Shown here one piece after another: positions 9,209 to 59,991 of a stretch of 64,000 nt of DNA (the first letter of the stretch is position 1; the number at the start of each line of letters is the position of its first letter). Below the pieces are notes generated by a model. That model was not told where the DNA came from. It saw only the letters and a program-made list of their open reading frames with translations, and made no database searches. Both the position numbers and the translations under genes were made by a program. The DNA lies in the NCBI GenBank assembly GCA_016784605.1, contig JADHUI010000010.1, forward strand, positions 1 through 64,000. The letters run 5' to 3'. This DNA is from Fidelibacterota bacterium. GTDB lineage: Bacteria; Fidelibacterota; Marinisomatia; Marinisomatales; UBA1611.

Positions 9209-11842
9209 ATGGCAACACCTCTTTTAGAAAAACAATATAATCCTAGAAATGTAGAAGATCACTGGTATTCCCACTGGATGGAAAACGGATATTTCCATGC
9301 AAACAGTGATTCCGATAAAGAGCCATATACCATTGTTATTCCGCCTCCCAATGTGACAGGAATGCTAACAATGGGCCACGTTTTGAATAATACCATTCAA
9401 GATATCCTCATTAGAAAAGCACGTATGGAGGGAAAAGAAGCCTGTTGGATTCCAGGGACAGATCATGCCTCAATTGCGACAGAATCTAAAGTTGTAAAAA
9501 TGCTCCAGGAAAAAGGAATCCAAAAGAAGGATCTTTCTAGAGATGAATTTTTATCTCATGCTTGGGAATGGAAGGATAAATACGGCGGAATTATTATTAA
9601 TCAGTTGAAAAGGCTGGGCTGTTCATGTGATTGGGAACGGGAAAGATTTACAATGGATGAAGGATATACAAAAGCGGTTCTGCATACATTTGTAACATTA
9701 TATGAAAAAGGGCTAATCTATCGTGGCCATCGATTAGTGAATTGGTGCCCTGTTTCAAAGTCAGCTATTAGCGATGAAGAAGTATTTCATCGTGAAATAA
9801 ATGGACATTTATGGCATTTTCGATATCCCGTGATAGGCTCTGAAGAATCGTTAGTTGTGGCAACTACTCGACCAGAAACCATGTTAGGTGATACTGCAGT
9901 GGCCGTTCACCCAGATGATGAACGATATCAGCATTTAGTGGGTAAAAAAGTAAAGCTTCCATTAGTTGGGCGCGAAATCCCTATCATTTCTGATGACTAT
10001 GTAGATCCAGAATTTGGAACAGGTTGTGTGAAAATCACACCAGCACATGACCCAAATGATTTTTCCATGGGTGAAAAACATGATTTGGAATTCATTAATA
10101 TTATGAATAATGATGCTTCATTGAACAATCATGTTCCTGAAAAATATCGTGGTTTATCTAGAGAAGTAGCTCGAAAAATAATCGTGAAAGATTTGGATGA
10201 ACAAGGTCATTTGGTGAAAACGGAAGATTATATCAATAACGTAGGTTATTCTGAACGGGGGAATGTACCCATCGAATTTTATATGTCGGAACAATGGTAT
10301 TTAAAAATGTCCGAGTTAGCCCAACCGGCGATTAAAGCAGTAAGGGATGGGAAAATAACCTTTCATCCTCAGCATTGGGATAAAACATATTATCATTGGA
10401 TGGATAATATTAAAGATTGGTGTATAAGTCGACAATTATGGTGGGGGCATCGTATTCCGGTTTGGTACCAAAAAGATGACCCAACGAATATGCATGTTTC
10501 TGTCGATGGTCCAACTGACCCAGAAAATTGGGACCAAGATTCAGATGTTTTAGATACTTGGGCAAGTTCATGGCTTTGGCCAATGGGGGTTCATGCTTGG
10601 CCTAGCGAAGATGATAATCTCAAAAAGTTTTACCCAACAAATGCTTTAGTTACGGGACCGGATATTATCTTTTTTTGGGTAGCAAGAATGATTATGACCG
10701 GTTACGAATTTATGGATGAGTTACCATTTAAAGATGTTTACTTCACATCCATTTTACGGGATGAAACTGGAAAAAAATTCAGTAAATCTCTAGGGAACTC
10801 TCCTGATCCGTTCGATTTATTTGATGAATATGGGACAGATGCTGTTCGATTTGGTACCATGTTGATGGCCCCGCAAGGATTGGATGTTTTATTTACAAAA
10901 GATCGACTCGAAGTGGGTCGAAATTTCATGAATAAACTTTGGAATGCTTGCCGATTTGTTCAAATGAATTTATCTGAAGGTGAAACCGTTGACGACTCAT
11001 TGATGGATACAAATTTAGATTTACCTGAAAAATGGATTTTAAGTCGATTAAACCAAGCCATTAAAGATTATAATCGTCAATTGGATCGGTTCCATTTCAA
11101 TGAAGCTGCAAAAGTAATCTATGATTTTACATGGAATGATTTTTGTGACTGGTATATTGAAATTGCCAAAACTCGATTTTATGGAGACGATGTATTATTG
11201 GCAGAAAAAGCGAGAATTGTGTCTAAAAAAGTTATTCGAACTGTTTTGGCATTACTGCATCCATATGCCCCTTTTATGACTGAAGAATTATGGAGTCACT
11301 TTAAAAAGGACACAGATAAAGATTTAATCGTATCACCTTGGCCAGAACTGGATGAAAAGGAAATTCATGATGATATCACAACAGATATGGCTTTATTGCA
11401 AGATATTATTTCTTCTATAAGAAGTATTCGTAGTCGGATGAATGTTCCTCCATCAAAAGAAGCAGAATTATTTGTACGATGCACACCCGAACAAACCGCT
11501 TTTTTAGAGAAATATGCTCAATTTATTCGTACGCTTTCCCGGGTTCGAACAATAGAAGCAGGCTCAGATATTAAAAGGCCGGATCCTTCAGCAACGGCCG
11601 TTGTAAAAGGAATGGAATTATACCTACCTTTAGGGGGGTTGATTGATTTAGATAAAGAAAGAGCTCGATTGGATAAACGAAAAAAAGAGATTGAAAAATT
11701 GCTCATGGGTATTCAAAATAAATTGAGTAATGACCATTTTACAAAACGGGCTCCTAAGCATATTGTAGATCATGAAAAAACAAAACTAAATGATTTGACA
11801 GATGAATTGAATAAAGTACGAGATAACTTGGAGATGCTATAA
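9209..11842 (+). CDS. valS: Valine--tRNA ligase
   Basis: This 877-residue class I aminoacyl-tRNA synthetase charges tRNA-Val. The HIGH-type motif appears in PPPNVTGMLTMGHVLNNT and the KMSKS-type motif in GKKFSKSLGNSPDP. The editing domain contains ATTRPETMLGDTAVAVHP. The catalytic core has WCISRQLWWGHRIPVWY. The C-terminal coiled-coil arm typical of ValRS occupies about residues 810-877 and is rich in Leu, Lys and Glu. No T-box leader is visible in the short upstream region. The stop overlaps the next start (TAATG), so the DUF4139 gene is probably co-transcribed. Confidence 0.98.
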   Translation: MATPLLEKQYNPRNVEDHWYSHWMENGYFHANSDSDKEPYTIVIPPPNVTGMLTMGHVLNNTIQDILIRKARMEGKEACWIPGTDHASIATESKVVKMLQEKGIQKKDLSRDEFLSHAWEWKDKYGGIIINQLKRLGCSCDWERERFTMDEGYTKAVLHTFVTLYEKGLIYRGHRLVNWCPVSKSAISDEEVFHREINGHLWHFRYPVIGSEESLVVATTRPETMLGDTAVAVHPDDERYQHLVGKKVKLPLVGREIPIISDDYVDPEFGTGCVKITPAHDPNDFSMGEKHDLEFINIMNNDASLNNHVPEKYRGLSREVARKIIVKDLDEQGHLVKTEDYINNVGYSERGNVPIEFYMSEQWYLKMSELAQPAIKAVRDGKITFHPQHWDKTYYHWMDNIKDWCISRQLWWGHRIPVWYQKDDPTNMHVSVDGPTDPENWDQDSDVLDTWASSWLWPMGVHAWPSEDDNLKKFYPTNALVTGPDIIFFWVARMIMTGYEFMDELPFKDVYFTSILRDETGKKFSKSLGNSPDPFDLFDEYGTDAVRFGTMLMAPQGLDVLFTKDRLEVGRNFMNKLWNACRFVQMNLSEGETVDDSLMDTNLDLPEKWILSRLNQAIKDYNRQLDRFHFNEAAKVIYDFTWNDFCDWYIEIAKTRFYGDDVLLAEKARIVSKKVIRTVLALLHPYAPFMTEELWSHFKKDTDKDLIVSPWPELDEKEIHDDITTDMALLQDIISSIRSIRSRMNVPPSKEAELFVRCTPEQTAFLEKYAQFIRTLSRVRTIEAGSDIKRPDPSATAVVKGMELYLPLGGLIDLDKERARLDKRKKEIEKLLMGIQNKLSNDHFTKRAPKHIVDHEKTKLNDLTDELNKVRDNLEML

Positions 11843-52536: not shown

Positions 52537-53478
52537 TTAATTCTTATAGGTTAAAATCATGGAATTATTTTTAAAAATACTTTCATTTTCATTTTCCTTT
52601 AAATAACCCATCATAATAGAATGTCCATCGATAGACAAATGATTTGGCTCATGATTAATGTTTGTCATATGTATAGGTTCTTTACCAAAGGAAAGTGCGC
52701 ACGTATTTTCAGGGCAAATCAATATAGAAGTATCACCCATAGACGAATAAGAAGTTAAATCATGGCAGAAAGTATAAGATTGTTTTGTGAACTGTCCTTT
52801 TTGACCTAAAATAATTTCCGGACTATTTGAAGTGTATAAACAAGCGGCATAAAAGGGCAGTAGTGTTTGAAAAATAAGCCATTCCATGGAATGGGCTTTT
52901 AAATCGGTATATATTTTTTCTCCACCTGATAATTTCATACTTTGTTGAATGCCATTCGTATTGACTAAAAGATTATAATGACTTAATTGAATTACTTTTT
53001 TATTATCCATAAAAAGGACAGCTTCATCCCTAAGGTTTGGTTTGTGCTTTGGGATGTAAGTGGGTTCAAATTCAGAAATAATTGAGAAAAGATCAATATC
53101 GTTGGGAATAATATTTTTACCATAAATGGATTTTAGGGATGAATCATTTGGCGATTCATTTGCTATAACAATTGTGGCGCCCAAATACCAAATACCAAAA
53201 GCAATTATTTCGCTAAAGGGAAAGGCTAATGGAGGCAAAAATAGGCGGTCTTTGGATTTTAAACCTAGGCTCTCTAACCAATGAGCTGTTTGTTGAACTT
53301 TTTCAAAAAATAGTTTATTTGTTATTCCCAGAGAATCATAAACAACAAGATTTGCGTGTTTAACATTTTGACCTTCAATGAGAGCGCTGGTATTTGGATA
53401 AGGAACCATATATTCAATCGGTTCAACATTTCCTAAACATTGGGCTTGATATATTCTATTTTGTAAATCTTGATTCAT
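52537..53478 (-). CDS. Degenerate AMP-binding (acyl-CoA synthetase-like) homologue
   Basis: This protein of about 313 residues resembles the N-terminal domain of AMP-dependent synthetases. KDRLFLPPLAFPFSEIIAFG and WYLGATIVIA match the family, as does IQLSHYNLLVNTNGIQ (usual: LTHxNL). The phosphate-binding loop SGTTGxPK, which should precede that last motif, is replaced by VLFMDNKK. The C-terminal domain with the catalytic Lys is absent; usual enzymes have about 500-600 residues. It therefore should not activate acids and may bind a ligand or partner. The ATG at 53476-53478 is preferred over an in-frame TTG 12 bp upstream. It is the last gene behind the tyrosine catabolism group. Confidence 0.65.
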   Translation of the reverse strand: MNQDLQNRIYQAQCLGNVEPIEYMVPYPNTSALIEGQNVKHANLVVYDSLGITNKLFFEKVQQTAHWLESLGLKSKDRLFLPPLAFPFSEIIAFGIWYLGATIVIANESPNDSSLKSIYGKNIIPNDIDLFSIISEFEPTYIPKHKPNLRDEAVLFMDNKKVIQLSHYNLLVNTNGIQQSMKLSGGEKIYTDLKAHSMEWLIFQTLLPFYAACLYTSNSPEIILGQKGQFTKQSYTFCHDLTSYSSMGDTSILICPENTCALSFGKEPIHMTNINHEPNHLSIDGHSIMMGYLKENENESIFKNNSMILTYKN

Positions 53479-53543
53479 TTTGTCACTCAAAGGAGATTGT
53501 TGAAATAAGTTCCAACATTATTAATGGTTTTTCGCAGGAGAAT

Positions 53544-54470
53544 TTATAAATACATTTCATTGGTTAGGCAGTGAAATGAACCACCGGCGTACCGATAATA
53601 AGTGAGGGGTGAAACAAAGCGCTCAACACCCAAGGATATGATTAATTCTTCAACTCCCGGTGTTAAAAAAGGTGCGCTATTTAACATTACACCTGGCCCA
53701 ATCAATGTATTGACAGCATAATTTCCAAGTTCCTTGCCTTCACCCGAAGCATCAACAGGATCTATATCAATACATTGTATATCTAATTCACGTATATGAT
53801 TAATACTTTCAGAGTGAATCATTTTTTTTGAAAGAATACACGCAACCAATTCACTCTCTGAATTAATAACTGGACTAAATACAGTGTCTAAATGATACCC
53901 TTCCGATTGAATCAAACAATAAAAGTCGGGCTTAACGATAGACCTAACAAAATCGTGCCCTTCTTTACTGGATCGAGATAGTCCACCAAAGTAATAGGTT
54001 CCATTCTGAGTCTCCAATAAAAACACTTCCCCGAACTCTAGAAATGCGTTATCAGGAAGGTGTATAATCTCTTTCTTAAAAATTTTCTGCATTGTTTCAG
54101 CGTGGGAATCTGCTTCAATTTGTCTATCGATGGCGCTAAATCGAGCTTTAATCCAATAATCTTTATAGAATAGGCCTGAATCTCTCACAAAAACAGCATC
54201 GTGATGTAAAGAATTAGGTTGATTTAATTTCTCAGGAAAAGGGAGTAAATGTACCGTAAATCCAGCTTTTTTAATTGTTCGAATAAAATGTTCGAATTCT
54301 TGTTTTAATTTTATTTGGTTGGGAATAATATTATGCTCATTTGCGTAAACAGTTGCATAATTCAAACTGTTTTCGGATTGCCCTTTGTGAATAGGATATC
54401 CGTTATACCAACACCCCTTTATTGCTCCGTTTTCAGGTGGCAAATCAATTAGTATAATTTCATTCATCAA
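53544..54470 (-). CDS. Dimethylarginine dimethylaminohydrolase-like (pentein) enzyme
   Basis: This 308-residue protein belongs to the arginine-modifying pentein superfamily. VFVRDSG (Asp97), GYHLDTVF (His193) and the C-terminal nucleophile Cys301 in GGSFHCLT match the DDAH and arginine deiminase catalytic triad. The usual LEGGD reads LEFGE, which may shift substrate. DDAH makes citrulline from methylated arginines, and relatives act on other guanidino compounds. It lies 6 bp downstream of the flavin reductase-like gene, suggesting an operon with the amino acid catabolic genes. The exact substrate is unknown. Confidence 0.8.
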   Translation of the reverse strand: MMNEIILIDLPPENGAIKGCWYNGYPIHKGQSENSLNYATVYANEHNIIPNQIKLKQEFEHFIRTIKKAGFTVHLLPFPEKLNQPNSLHHDAVFVRDSGLFYKDYWIKARFSAIDRQIEADSHAETMQKIFKKEIIHLPDNAFLEFGEVFLLETQNGTYYFGGLSRSSKEGHDFVRSIVKPDFYCLIQSEGYHLDTVFSPVINSESELVACILSKKMIHSESINHIRELDIQCIDIDPVDASGEGKELGNYAVNTLIGPGVMLNSAPFLTPGVEELIISLGVERFVSPLTYYRYAGGSFHCLTNEMYL

Positions 54471-54476
54471 ATGAGT

Positions 54477-55091
54477 TTATTTTTTTCTTTTGATCTCAAA
54501 TCGATCCGTTGTGCGAACATAGCCATTTGCGCCGGCAAGACGGCCAATTGGTTTAAGTGCATCCAAATCGATACGGCCATTTTCATATAACTGTTCATCC
54601 ACATGAAAAAGAATAATTGTCCCTAAAACCAGAGCACCGCTTCCAGGGCTTCCATCCCCAATTTCAATAATCTGGTTTAACTCGCACTCGAAGGTGATTT
54701 TAGATTCGCCCACCCGCATTGATTGAATCTTTTCACATGGAATTGGTGTAAGTCCGGATGGGTCAAACTCACTTACATCGGGTGGAAATTCTATCGCAGT
54801 TTTCACCATTTCTGCAGCAAAAGATTCACTGACAATATTTAGTGCAAAAACGCCCGTGTCTTGGATATTCTTAAGCGTGTCCTTGATATTTCCATCGGTC
54901 CCGCGACGTACAGGACAGAATGAAATTGTTGGCGGATTTGAGCACACTCCATTGAAAAATGAGAAAGGCGCTAAATTATCAATCCCATCTTTGGATTGGG
55001 TAGAAACAAACGCAATGGGGCGAGGAACGATTGACCCAATCATGAGTTTATAATTATCCTTAAAGGACTGCTGTTTAGGATCAATAATCAT
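54477..55091 (-). CDS. Flavin reductase-like (FMN-binding split barrel) protein
   Basis: This protein of about 204 residues has the flavin reductase-like fold. LMIGSIVPRPIAFVSTQSKD at the N-terminus is the classic start of the family, followed by NLAPFSFFNGVCSNPPTISF and GVFALNIVSESFAAEM, with GRLAGANGYVRT near the end. The ATG at 55089-55091 overlaps the hmgA stop (ATGA) and has GGAAAG in front; an in-frame ATG 12 bp upstream is possible. It may supply reduced flavin or act as an oxidoreductase in aromatic metabolism; this is inferred from the neighbouring hmgA. Confidence 0.83.
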   Translation of the reverse strand: MIIDPKQQSFKDNYKLMIGSIVPRPIAFVSTQSKDGIDNLAPFSFFNGVCSNPPTISFCPVRRGTDGNIKDTLKNIQDTGVFALNIVSESFAAEMVKTAIEFPPDVSEFDPSGLTPIPCEKIQSMRVGESKITFECELNQIIEIGDGSPGSGALVLGTIILFHVDEQLYENGRIDLDALKPIGRLAGANGYVRTTDRFEIKRKK

Positions 55092-56239
55092 GATTCTTTC
55101 CATGAGTAGGGATAATTAATATCATCAATTTCATCCAAAATTTCCGCATATTGAAGTGGAGAAAAAGTGTCAATCATGACTGCGAGTTCAACGGTTTCTT
55201 TCTTCCCAAGAGATGCTTCAATTTTTCCTGGTTGCGGACCATGGGGTAATCCCATCGGGTGAACTGTCATTGATTCCGGTTCGATGCCTTTTCGGCTCAT
55301 AAAATTTCCCTTCACATAATATAATACTTCATCCGAATCCACATTACTGTGAGCATAAGGTGCGGGAATGGCGTCATCATGATAATCGTAAAGCCGAGGA
55401 ACAAATGAACAAATTACAAAACCAGGAGATTGAAATGTTTGATGAATGGGTGGCGGTAAATGCACTTTTCCTGTGATGGGCATGAAATCATTAATATTGA
55501 AAATCCATGGAAAGTAAAATCCATCCCATCCCACTAAGTCAAATGGATGGTGTTCATAAGAATACGTTTGGTATCCACCTTGAAGACGAACAAGTACATC
55601 AACAGGATTATTATGGTTTTTCGGTTCTGCGAAATTAGGTGTACGGACATCTCTTTCACAAAATGGAGCATCTTCCATAAGTTGCCCAAATCGATTTCGA
55701 TAGCGATTGGGTGTTTCAACGGGCCCCGATGATTCCACTACTAACATGTGTATGGGATCTTTAATGATTAATTGCCAAATAACTCCGCGTGGAATGACGA
55801 CATAATCTCCATGTTTAACGTCCATATTCCCAAAATTGGAGCAGAATTGACCTGTTCCTGATTGTATAAATAATACTTCATCATAATGTCCATTTCGATA
55901 TAATACATCCATAGATTGATCTACATGAGCTTTATGAATAAACATATCCTGATTAAATAAGAGTGGAATTCGAGCAGAAATAGCATCTCCTGAAGATTGC
56001 AATTGATGGGTTCTGAAATGGCGATTTCTATGAGTATCTTTCAACGGTTTAATATCAAATGGAATCCAATCCCCAACAGCTGTTACTGTCGTAGGGGGAT
56101 TATGATGATATACATTAGAATAAATGGAACTGAAGCCTTCCCTGCTAATCAATTCTTCCCAATATAAAGAATGATTCGTATCTCTAAATTGAATATGGCG
56201 TTTTTCTGGAACGGTACCGCGTTTTTGGTAAAATGGCAT
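55088..56239 (-). CDS. hmgA: Homogentisate 1,2-dioxygenase
   Basis: This 383-residue Fe(II) enzyme opens the ring of homogentisate to maleylacetoacetate in tyrosine breakdown. The cupin core includes HYDEVLFIQSGTGQFCSNFG and GDYVVIPRG. The likely iron ligands are in PYAHSNVDSDEVLYYVKG (His297, Glu304) and in HPMGLPHGPQPG (His327 or His333). The protein is shorter than the 430-440 residue enzymes of proteobacteria and animals but keeps the active-site blocks. It overlaps the DUF309 gene by 1 bp and the flavin reductase gene by 4 bp. Confidence 0.93.
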   Translation of the reverse strand: MPFYQKRGTVPEKRHIQFRDTNHSLYWEELISREGFSSIYSNVYHHNPPTTVTAVGDWIPFDIKPLKDTHRNRHFRTHQLQSSGDAISARIPLLFNQDMFIHKAHVDQSMDVLYRNGHYDEVLFIQSGTGQFCSNFGNMDVKHGDYVVIPRGVIWQLIIKDPIHMLVVESSGPVETPNRYRNRFGQLMEDAPFCERDVRTPNFAEPKNHNNPVDVLVRLQGGYQTYSYEHHPFDLVGWDGFYFPWIFNINDFMPITGKVHLPPPIHQTFQSPGFVICSFVPRLYDYHDDAIPAPYAHSNVDSDEVLYYVKGNFMSRKGIEPESMTVHPMGLPHGPQPGKIEASLGKKETVELAVMIDTFSPLQYAEILDEIDDINYPYSWKES

Positions 56240-56667
56240 TATCTCTCTCTTCTTCCTGTTATGTAAAGATTTTCAAACCGATCCAATAAAGCTTTCTTTA
56301 AAGTCGCATTTTGGAGATGTTGAATAAGCGAATTTACATCTATGTATTTATCAATTGTTTTCTTGTTTTGGATCATGCGTTCGAGAGCTTTATCAAATAA
56401 ATAATTTCCTCCCGACACTTTATTTAATTCATAATTCTGGGGCGAAACTGCTAACATAATAAATGGTTTTAAATAGGATCGGTCACCCGATTCTCCAATG
56501 CGCATCCAGCTATGCTCCCAAATATGATGCGCTTTGGGGTAATCTTGTTGATTGAAAGCTTCAATCCCAAGATAAAATTCATCCATTTCATTTTCACCTT
56601 TTGATTGCACAGATTGATGCGGATGAACTCCGATATTATTAAGATTATTTGATGATGTTTTTTTCAT
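56239..56667 (-). CDS. DUF309 domain protein
   Basis: This protein has up to 142 residues and one DUF309-like domain: FYLGIEAFNQQDYPKAHHIW is the signature (usual FNxxxYxxAHExWE). Helices follow with LKPFIMLAVSPQNYELNKVS. The first 27 residues are polar and may not be translated: an ATG at 56584-56586 (MDEFYLGI) has a better AAGGTG ribosome binding site and gives 115 residues. Function of the family is unknown. It overlaps hmgA by 1 bp (TAATG). Confidence 0.75.
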   Translation of the reverse strand: MKKTSSNNLNNIGVHPHQSVQSKGENEMDEFYLGIEAFNQQDYPKAHHIWEHSWMRIGESGDRSYLKPFIMLAVSPQNYELNKVSGGNYLFDKALERMIQNKKTIDKYIDVNSLIQHLQNATLKKALLDRFENLYITGRRER

Positions 56668-56796: not shown

Positions 56797-57774
56797 TTAT
56801 TGAATTGTATTTTCGAGTGTACCTAGTCCTTCAATTTTCATTTTAACTGAGTCACCTTTTTTGAGCCACCCATTCGTATTCTCTGGACCAAGTTCTAAGA
56901 TACAGCCCGTTCCAACCGTTCCGGAGCCAATATAATCTCCGGCAAATAGTTTTGTATTTTGGCTTGCACGTTCAATCATATTGGAAAATGAATGGTACAT
57001 ATCAGATGTTTGTCCATCAGAATATAATTCTCCATTAATGTGACATGTCATTTTAAGATTCAATTGTCCATCATTATTAAGCAATTCATCTGGTGTTACC
57101 ATATAGGGCCCAAAACTCGTTGCGAAATCTTTCCCTTTAGCCGGACCGAGATTTAGGCGCATTTCTTCTCTTTGGAAATCGCGTGCCGACCAATCATTGC
57201 AAATGGTGTACCCTCCAATATAAGTATGCGCATTATCACTGGAAATATTTTTCCCGCCTTTGGCGATGATGGCTGCAATTTCTAATTCATAGTCTAATTC
57301 TTGGCATGGTTCTGGGTATGGAATATTCTCTAAATGGCCAAATAAAGCTGTTGGGTTTGAAAAGTAGAATACAGGCACTTTATACCAAAGTGGATCTATC
57401 TCCAGTCCCCGGTTTTTTCTGGCTGTTTTGACATGCTGTTCAAATGCATAATAATCTCGAAATGTTCTCGGATCAGGTACTGGTGGCAAAAATTGAACCG
57501 AATCTAAAGAAACAGCAATAGATTTCTCATGGGCGGAATAAGTATGTATAAGTGAGTCGGGTAAAGAACGCTCTAACTTTTTTAAGCTTTCAAATGAATC
57601 ATCCCAATTTTCCAGTGCCCTTTTTAAGGATGTAGGAATGGACAAAAATTCTTGATTTCCTTGGGAATCATTTATAAAAATTGCCGCATACAAAATATCA
57701 ACAACATAATTGTCACGTATAAACCCGAATCGGGGTTCTGTACCTACAATCCGTGTATAGGTCACAAATTTCAT
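56797..57774 (-). CDS. Fumarylacetoacetate hydrolase family protein
   Basis: This 325-residue enzyme is expected to split fumarylacetoacetate into fumarate and acetoacetate, the last step of tyrosine catabolism. The metal-binding region is in CQELDYELEIAAIIAKGG and ICNDWSARDFQREE. KGKDFATSFGPYMVTPDEL and GDYIGSGTVGTGC follow. The FAH superfamily also contains other diketone and enol hydrolases, but the hppD and hmgA neighbours support this role. It starts directly after the hppD stop. Confidence 0.9.
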   Translation of the reverse strand: MKFVTYTRIVGTEPRFGFIRDNYVVDILYAAIFINDSQGNQEFLSIPTSLKRALENWDDSFESLKKLERSLPDSLIHTYSAHEKSIAVSLDSVQFLPPVPDPRTFRDYYAFEQHVKTARKNRGLEIDPLWYKVPVFYFSNPTALFGHLENIPYPEPCQELDYELEIAAIIAKGGKNISSDNAHTYIGGYTICNDWSARDFQREEMRLNLGPAKGKDFATSFGPYMVTPDELLNNDGQLNLKMTCHINGELYSDGQTSDMYHSFSNMIERASQNTKLFAGDYIGSGTVGTGCILELGPENTNGWLKKGDSVKMKIEGLGTLENTIQ

Positions 57775-58896
57775 TTAGAGATTTCCTCGTTTTTCCTGTT
57801 CGATTTCGATGGACTCAAATAAGGCTTGAAAATTCCCTTGACCAAATCCACGTGACCCTTTTCGCTGAATAATTTCATAAAAAAGTGTTGGGCGGTCTTC
57901 AACGGGCTTCGAAAATAATTGTAATAAATAGCCTTCTTCATCTCTATCCACTAAAATGCCCAATTCTTTTAATGGCATTAAAGCCTCATCAATTGAGCCA
58001 ACGCGTTCTGAGAGTTCATCGTAATACGAATCAGGAACATATAGAAAATCCACACCATTATTTCGGAGAGCCGTAATTGTTTTAATAATATCATCCGTGA
58101 GTAAGGCTATATGTTGAACTCCCGGTCCTTCATTAAAATCTAGGTATTCTTCAATTTGCGATTTTTTTAATCCTGAAGCCGGTTCGTTTATGGGGAATTT
58201 TACTTTCCAGTTTTTGGACCGCATGACACGACTTTTTAAGGCTGAAAATTTGGTTGATATATCGTTTTCATCGAATACAACAAAATTGGTGAATCCGAAA
58301 ATGTCTTCATAGAAATCACGCCATTCATTCATTTTCCCTTCTTCCACATTTCCCACAATATGATCGATGAGTAGAAGTCCAGAGTCTTCTGAGTTTACAG
58401 TAGGTAAGTCCAGATGTATATAGCCTGGAGCCCATAATCCATTATAAGCTTTTCGCTCCACAAATGAATGAATGGTATCACCATACGTTTTAATGGCGGA
58501 TTTTCGATAAATCCCATTTTCATCTTCCCAGTCTTTGGAAGGGTGAACCGACTCAGCGCCTCGACTCACGCATGAGTCATGAGCTGTCTGATCGCACTCC
58601 ACTTTAAACGCAATATCCCGAACGCCGTCTCCATGTTTAGCCAACCAATCAGTTGCTGGATGATTAGACGTTAAAGGTGTCGTTATAACAAAATAGATTT
58701 GATTCTGTTTTAAAACATAACTGACTCGGTCTTTTTGTCCTGTCTCAGGCCCGGCATAAGCATAAGGTTGCATACCAAAGGCTGTGCGATAATAATGCAC
58801 TGCTTGTTTCGCATTTCCCACATAGAATTCAATATGATCGAGTTCGGTAATGGGGAAATATTCTTTACCTGTCCATTCTGTTGTAATGATTGCCAT
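57775..58896 (-). CDS. hppD: 4-hydroxyphenylpyruvate dioxygenase
   Basis: This 373-residue Fe(II) enzyme turns 4-hydroxyphenylpyruvate into homogentisate. Two vicinal-oxygen-chelate halves are seen. The iron ligands His179 (LIDHIVGN), His262 (GVQHIALLTDD) and Glu341 (LFYEIIQRKG) are all in the C-terminal half as expected. RKGSRGFGQGNFQALFESIE is the typical C-terminal gate helix region. The length is standard. It lies flush between the aminotransferase and the FAH gene. Confidence 0.96.
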   Translation of the reverse strand: MAIITTEWTGKEYFPITELDHIEFYVGNAKQAVHYYRTAFGMQPYAYAGPETGQKDRVSYVLKQNQIYFVITTPLTSNHPATDWLAKHGDGVRDIAFKVECDQTAHDSCVSRGAESVHPSKDWEDENGIYRKSAIKTYGDTIHSFVERKAYNGLWAPGYIHLDLPTVNSEDSGLLLIDHIVGNVEEGKMNEWRDFYEDIFGFTNFVVFDENDISTKFSALKSRVMRSKNWKVKFPINEPASGLKKSQIEEYLDFNEGPGVQHIALLTDDIIKTITALRNNGVDFLYVPDSYYDELSERVGSIDEALMPLKELGILVDRDEEGYLLQLFSKPVEDRPTLFYEIIQRKGSRGFGQGNFQALFESIEIEQEKRGNL

Positions 58897-59991
58897 TTAA
58901 TTTTCCTTTAAAATTTCTTTTAATTTTTTAATTATTCCACGATTCTGTTCCATGGTTCCAACACTGATTCGTATTGCATCTGGCCATCCAAATGCATTCA
59001 ATTGCCGAACGATATAACCTTGTCTAAATAATTTTTCTGTTATGAGTTTGGCTCCTTCTTCAGAATCCCAGAGTGTAGTAATGAAATTAGTCGCAGATGG
59101 TACCGTTTTAATATTCATCATAGAGAGATTCTTTTCTAAAAAGGAAATGCCATCTTGAGTTACTTTTAATGTATTCTCTAAATGGCTCTGATCCATTAAT
59201 GCACCTAACCCAGCTGCTTGAGCTGGGAGAGATGGCTCGAACGGTACTTTCACTTTAATAAGATTTTCAATTAAATTTTTGTGAGCAAGGCCATAACCGA
59301 TTCGTGCGCCAGCTAATCCATACGCTTTTGAGAAAGTTCGTAGTGTAATCACATTGTCATATCGATATGTCATGGAATCGGGGTAGTCTGGTTTATCTTT
59401 AGCAAATTCGTAATATGCTTCATCCAAAATAATGAGACATCTTTCTGGAACGTGTGTATAAAACTCATCAAATTCGGATCGAGTGATATAGGTACCCATG
59501 GGATTGTCTGGGTTTGCTAAATATATTATTTTCGTATAATCTGTTATCTTTTCACCGATGGCTTTTAAATCGTATCGATAGTTTTTCATTGGAAGCCAAT
59601 GAGCTTTTCGTCCAGAAGCGTTTGCCAAGACTTTGAACCCAATAAAACTGTTTTTAGCCGAAATGAGTTCATCATCCGTAAGCAAAAATGTTCGCATTAT
59701 CGTGGACATAACCCCTTCAGAACCTGCGCCTAAAATAACATTATCAATCATCACATTATATTTTTTAGCTAAAGCATCCCTTAAATGATATCCAGATGCT
59801 TCTGGGTAATAATGCATATTCTTCATCACAGAATTCATTGCATCTATGGCTTTTGGAGACGGACCTAGTGGGTTTTCATTTGATGCCATTTTAACAAATG
59901 ACTCTAACCCTAATTCTCTGCGAGCTTGATCTACGGATTTCCCAGCTTTATAGGCTGTGAGCTGCTTGATATATGACGGAACTAACGCCAT
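58897..59991 (-). CDS. HisC-family aminotransferase, probable aromatic amino acid transaminase
   Basis: This 364-residue fold type I PLP enzyme has ASNENPLGPSPKAIDAM, the substrate and PLP region LANPDNPMGTYI, and the PLP lysine in FSKAYGLAGARIGYG. HisC-type enzymes act on histidinol phosphate or on aromatic amino acids. There are no histidine genes here, and the gene lies between lrp and hppD. It therefore most likely converts tyrosine to 4-hydroxyphenylpyruvate, feeding HppD. The start overlaps the lrp stop by 1 bp (TGATG). Confidence 0.87.
   Translation of the reverse strand: MALVPSYIKQLTAYKAGKSVDQARRELGLESFVKMASNENPLGPSPKAIDAMNSVMKNMHYYPEASGYHLRDALAKKYNVMIDNVILGAGSEGVMSTIMRTFLLTDDELISAKNSFIGFKVLANASGRKAHWLPMKNYRYDLKAIGEKITDYTKIIYLANPDNPMGTYITRSEFDEFYTHVPERCLIILDEAYYEFAKDKPDYPDSMTYRYDNVITLRTFSKAYGLAGARIGYGLAHKNLIENLIKVKVPFEPSLPAQAAGLGALMDQSHLENTLKVTQDGISFLEKNLSMMNIKTVPSATNFITTLWDSEEGAKLITEKLFRQGYIVRQLNAFGWPDAIRISVGTMEQNRGIIKKLKEILKEN

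Follow-up and report, generated by a model that had tools for sequence, protein, structure and literature searches.

Catalytically dead paralogues that are kept for binding or allostery are a recognised phenomenon, pseudokinases and the trypanosome prozyme being examples (PMC10211241, PMC5201418), and the protein described here would, as we propose, be likewise a dead relative retained for such a purpose. The main text of the pseudoenzyme review PMC10211241 contains none of the terms 'synthetase', 'AMP-binding' and 'adenylat', and the titles and abstract openings of the open-access papers among the best matches listed do not mention the family described here.

Among structures, the closest described systems are the N-terminal domain of FACL13/FadD13 (PDB 3t5c, 5zrn) and those of other ANL synthetases, whose fold is predicted to be that of our protein; compared with FACL13/FadD13, however, the latter has 13% identity and is without the P-loop, the A7 Asp, the hinge and the C-domain. 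A further close system is acetoacetyl-CoA synthetase (TIGR01217), which acts on the end product of the tyrosine pathway and occupies the same slot, after a flavin reductase, in five outgroup loci; our protein, by contrast, does not group with TIGR01217 and stands on another ANL branch.

The gene lies in a stretch of 64,000 nucleotides (the window) whose host is a member of Candidatus Neomarinimicrobiota. We consider it likely that this gene, placed at the end of a tyrosine operon in the Neomarinimicrobiota, encodes a maintained pseudoenzyme that arose from a full-length acyl-CoA synthetase and most likely works by binding; within this proposal, the reading of the gene as a pseudoenzyme is strongly supported. 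Many members of this phylum of uncultured marine bacteria retain the gene, which is uncharacterised.

The gene and its predicted product

The frame between 52537 and 53478 is intact, as the original prediction had stated. The gene and the conserved parts of its product are:

52537..53478, minus strand: ANL-derived pseudoenzyme, short form; 313 aa, ATG start, open frame
52603..52626, minus strand: A6-type motif GHSIMMGY, codons 285-292; G285, H286, M289, G291 and Y292 invariant in a 25-sequence alignment
52954..52992, minus strand: IQLSHYNLLVNTN, codons 163-175; aligns with the post-P-loop helix of the full-length relative L043, the loop itself being absent
53359..53454, minus strand: family-specific N-terminal segment, codons 9-40, richly conserved

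A TTG upstream, at 53490, is a possible alternative start. The ANL motifs go here by the names A3 to A10. The A3 P-loop SG[ST]TG is absent from the window protein both in a motif search and in the alignment, and in the alignment this protein likewise lacks the A7 Asp (RTGD), the hinge and the C-terminal domain with its Lys, the C-terminus falling just before RTGD. The Pfam AMP-binding profile (PF00501) matches residues 48-110 weakly, at 17.6 bits, short of its gathering cut-off of 29.9; neither NCBIfam nor a phmmer search of the PDB returned a match up to E 1. The AlphaFold2 model, built from 59 family sequences, is confident (mean pLDDT 95.9, pTM 0.93), and Foldseek and VIA-align put it on ANL N-terminal domains, with 3t5c (FACL13) as the top match (Z 29.9, 2.3 A, 278 of 313 residues) and other ANL structures close behind, at a distance of no more than a few Z units, in this model comparison. 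Hence the N-terminal domain fold of the PF00501 enzymes is predicted to be intact, with the catalytic parts missing. Alignment, Pfam and model thus bear out the earlier description of the protein as an ANL N-terminal domain without the SGTTG loop and the C-terminal domain.

Conservation was scored in 57 short forms (56 loci and the window; L044, the broken L080 and seven short proteins that contain unread residues are not among them). At least 80% conserved are 20 of the 32 positions in residues 9-40, 11 of 13 in residues 163-175 and all 8 in residues 285-292, and P26, G100, Y168, G285 and H286 are invariant across an alignment of 59 family sequences.

Distribution, descent and selection

Matches to the window protein at E up to 1e-3 were found in 95 of 200 related genomes, so the frame is not a product of chance. 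The gene is present in 93 of the 130 genomes of the order; the 11 listed genomes of the streamlined family f15, of 0.8-1.0 Mb, gave no match. Most fetched homologues (64 of 79) are 280-335 aa long, longer ones occurring in families f3, f4 and f7, and among 80 members of the family (the window protein and the 79 fetched homologues) the P-loop motif occurs in L043 only. Full-length homologues with a recent truncation in the window, the outcome that the original prediction had set against itself, are not what we found, since only one of the 79 is full-length. A pattern scan of an 84,980-species collection gave 86 pattern matches, 75 of them confirmed, with 64 in Neomarinimicrobiota or Marinimicrobia and the remaining 11 including 'FCB group' entries; the scan depends on a single peptide pattern and so misses any relative that does not carry it, such as L043. 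When four short or reduced members were compared with Pfam, three (the window protein, L068 and L044) fell below the cut-off or had no match, and L048 was above it. Annotation will often overlook this family.

The family includes forms at different stages of reduction. L043, from another family of the phylum (genome G181), has 568 aa and carries YTSGTTGKPKG, RSGD and a C-terminal domain, which set it apart from the window protein, and is presumably active; it matches PF00501 at 284.2 bits and PF13193 at 34.4 bits, and its best NCBIfam match is NF004837/PRK06187 (378.9 bits, below the cut-off of 476). Searched at 1e-75 against 245 genomes of the phylum, it matched only G181 itself and a pseudo-form in G035. 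With the short forms it shares the slot after the flavin reductase and an AQ...PP...VPY N-terminal segment. Twelve intermediates of 347-428 aa lack the P-loop and the C-domain and end near the hinge in the alignment. In a tree of 36 rows, whose bootstrap had not fully settled, in which the branching order of the intermediates is not fixed and L044 is very long-branched, one clade (98/92) unites L043 and L044 with nine of the intermediates and with 15 short forms of about 310 aa, the latter making up a single clade within it (99/100). Judged from these sequences, the short forms and a motif-intact enzyme have a common descent. It is not the ATP chemistry that full-length and reduced forms have in common, but the N-terminal segment, the helix that followed the missing loop, and the region GH-x-x-M-x-Y.

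Derivation from acetoacetyl-CoA synthetase was rejected on the branch position of the TIGR01217 enzymes in this tree; L144, provisionally labelled AACS, fell elsewhere in it.

The gene is maintained by purifying selection. NG86 omega was 0.056-0.27 in 18 of the 19 measurable pairs (21 pairs, 2 saturated), the exception being L031/L070 with 0.48 at a dS of 0.07; the dN/dS comparison, which had been named beforehand as a check, thus came out on the side of maintenance. An additional set had nine pairs, 3 of them saturated and 2 with unread bases. Pairs that have no operon at this site show selection too (L079/L081, 0.158; L049/L107, 0.090; L037/L040, 0.257), as does a pair in which one member is without it (L065/L066, 0.097). 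Between the window and genome G001, omega is 0.16 for the pseudoenzyme, 0.040 for HPPD, 0.045 for HGD, 0.064 for the flavin reductase, 0.076 for the DDAH-like gene, 0.136 for FAH and 0.199 for DUF309, so the pseudoenzyme is constrained, but less than most of the operon.

Genomic context

The gene had been placed at the end of a set of tyrosine catabolism genes, and this is where it stands. Upstream of it in the window lie:

53544..54467, minus strand: DDAH-like gene, between flavin reductase and pseudoenzyme; PF19420 at 29.7 bits; its NCBIfam matches fall short of their cut-offs
54477..55103, minus strand: flavin-reductase-domain protein; in relatives, the gene that most often stands immediately upstream
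55088..56239, minus strand: homogentisate dioxygenase-like (HGD) protein, by profile matches
56239-56667: DUF309 protein inside the operon, found also in G001, G002 and G018 (L071, L072, L074) among the 80 fetched loci
56797..57774, minus strand: fumarylacetoacetate hydrolase-like (FAH) protein, by profile matches
57775..58896, minus strand: 4-hydroxyphenylpyruvate dioxygenase (HPPD), TIGR01263 at 447.7 bits (cut-off 277)
58897..59991, minus strand: putative aminotransferase, assigned by sight and position; its counterparts in relatives make up neighbour cluster 5 (hisC-like)

In relatives the pseudoenzyme is most often the last gene of an HPPD-FAH-HGD-flavin-reductase operon. Within 8 kb on the same strand, the 79 loci have a flavin reductase in at least 58 cases, HGD in at least 47, FAH in at least 46 and HPPD in at least 42, counts that are lower bounds owing to contig ends. 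In 36 of 59 loci (median 38 nt) the start of the pseudoenzyme is no more than 60 nt away from the flavin-reductase stop or overlaps it. Of the two linkages suggested at the outset, that with hmgA-like genes recurs across families; the DDAH-like gene is so placed only in the window and in G001 (L071, same genus), that is, by tblastn, in 1 of 80 fetched loci, and a general DDAH linkage was rejected. The flavin-reductase-domain protein, an open frame of about 290 aa in several other members of the class, is regularly part of the HPPD/HGD operon.

A second cassette occurs in the same position. Tyrosine phenol-lyase (TIGR02618) scores over its cut-off in 8 of 133 genomes and lies directly upstream of the pseudoenzyme in 6 of these 8 (L046, L047, L050 and L067, of families f12, f13, f2 and f13, and, by coordinates, G060 and G061); HPPD and HGD were not detected in these 6 genomes. 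The loci L058 (f11) and L047/L067 (f13) have common flanks, clusters 20 (which lumps several PLP enzymes) and 32 upstream and clusters 33-35 downstream, and between them L058 has aminotransferase-HPPD-FAH-HGD-flavin reductase and L047/L067 have tyrosine phenol-lyase.

The gene is also found without the pathway. In L065 (G011) it is kept between flanks that enclose the whole operon in L066, of the same genus, and L049, L092, L107, L037, L040 and L081 likewise have it between operon-enclosing flanks without the operon. Among the 93 bearing genomes of the order, 65 have HPPD or intact HGD and 28 have neither detected; 6 of these 28 have an adjacent tyrosine phenol-lyase and 22 have neither route, many of the genomes being incomplete. 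Another five of these 130 genomes possess the pathway without a pseudoenzyme match. The association with HPPD/HGD over these 130 genomes (65/28/5/32, with the HGD remnants of G050, G069 and G118 counted as absent) has a Fisher p of 4e-9, which is no proof, since it ignores kinship and completeness, genomes are incomplete, and the matchless f15 genomes that it includes may drive it. Retention of the gene where the pathway is missing, together with the tyrosine phenol-lyase context and the reduction series, goes beyond the original prediction. In L057 (G069) and L106 (G118) HGD is reduced to fragments next to a flavin reductase, the pseudoenzyme frame beside them is open, and here the tyrosine pathway seems to be decaying while the pseudoenzyme persists.

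Among the outgroup loci that have HGD and flavin reductase, an ANL gene follows the flavin reductase in 6 of 8: the five tested, L123, L132, L133, L135 and L142, score over the TIGR01217 cut-off, and L124 is a sixth whose family assignment is not confirmed; in L127 and L128, tblastn found no ANL gene after the flavin reductase. The window genome has its own acetoacetyl-CoA synthetase elsewhere (G000:C1, 934.1 bits) and a CoA-transferase subunit.

Discussion

Judged from the existing forms, the pseudoenzyme probably arose in two steps: the P-loop and the swinging C-terminal domain would have been lost first, leaving intermediates with their end close to the hinge; a further trimming by roughly another 50-100 residues would then, once, have given the form of about 310 aa. 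Under the known ANL mechanism, such a protein should be incapable of ATP-dependent carboxylate activation and of thioester formation and, as the known chemistry would not be possible, binding is its most likely mode of action. The N-terminal segment, the post-loop helix and GH-x-x-M-x-GY may serve to bind either a partner protein or a ligand, which would be an aromatic acid or amino acid; such binding would tune the use of tyrosine. The simplest reading is that a binding function was retained or repurposed, perhaps as a ligand-binding or adaptor protein around tyrosine use by whatever route, the link to tyrosine being suggested because two chemically different cassettes share only tyrosine use. 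More specifically, these stand-alone ANL pseudoenzymes could be a route-independent tyrosine sensor or adaptor that stayed in place while the cassette upstream was exchanged between the homogentisate route and tyrosine phenol-lyase, an idea that we put forward tentatively and regard as possible rather than probable.

It is conceivable, though we doubt it, that the function has nothing to do with tyrosine and that the gene is an anchor, widespread in the order, upstream of which different catabolic cassettes came and went. The 22 bearing genomes with neither route suggest that its job may not concern tyrosine, and the gene persists, without the operon, in the seven loci named above and under an omega of 0.09-0.26 in pairs with operon-less members; both recurrent cassettes, on the other hand, serve tyrosine, and the HPPD/HGD association, uncorrected as it is and possibly driven by f15, is strong. 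The close spacing in 36 of 59 loci points to another role, in which the protein would be a non-catalytic subunit belonging to the flavin reductase or to some other operon enzyme, as does a strong flavin-reductase match in 10 of the 22 genomes without HPPD, HGD and tyrosine phenol-lyase. We hold this to be unlikely, since 640 to 4898 nt of other DNA separates both genes in 11 of 59 loci, 19 of the 93 bearing genomes are without a strong flavin-reductase match, and a read-through model of the two proteins reached a pTM of 0.65 and lent no support to a 1:1 contact (single copies, no control).

That the reduced N-domain gained a new chemistry, independent of ATP and of the C-terminal domain, strikes us as improbable. 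Candidate residues exist, E22, K40, S166, Y168, N173 and H286 being invariant in 25 sequences and E257 present in 98% of the 57 short forms; however, the full-length L043 already possesses H286, Y168 and a glutamate in alignment with E257, which are thus inherited rather than new, and the protein evolves faster than three neighbouring enzymes (HPPD, HGD and flavin reductase). Recent truncation was rejected because the orthologues are short too, and decay of a synthetase is hardly credible, even if the orthologue L080 (G024) has an in-frame internal stop and the copy in G036 (L136), in a stretch that also contains unread bases, looks broken: many families of the order have short forms, those 15 that were placed in the tree go back to one origin, and purifying selection acts on the short forms. 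Short homologues, their single clade, selection and the confident model all favour a maintained pseudoenzyme over decay, which is what had been proposed from the window alone.

The pseudoenzyme and its relatives thus form a natural series, from a full-length enzyme of 568 aa through forms of 347-428 aa to a pseudoenzyme of about 310 aa, the last of these still being under selection, and this series lets one test what an ANL N-domain is able to do without ATP.

Some observations on relatives may be added. Acetoacetyl-CoA synthetase after the flavin reductase in outgroup tyrosine operons links the end product of the pathway to its activation. A very divergent, P-loop-less relative of 289 aa, L044, is found in G193 (family f25; 9268-10134, minus strand); a tblastn search of its surroundings for the tyrosine genes of the window gave no match, and the genes upstream on the same strand, judged by sight of their first residues, resemble a CobW-like GTPase and a UroD-like protein.
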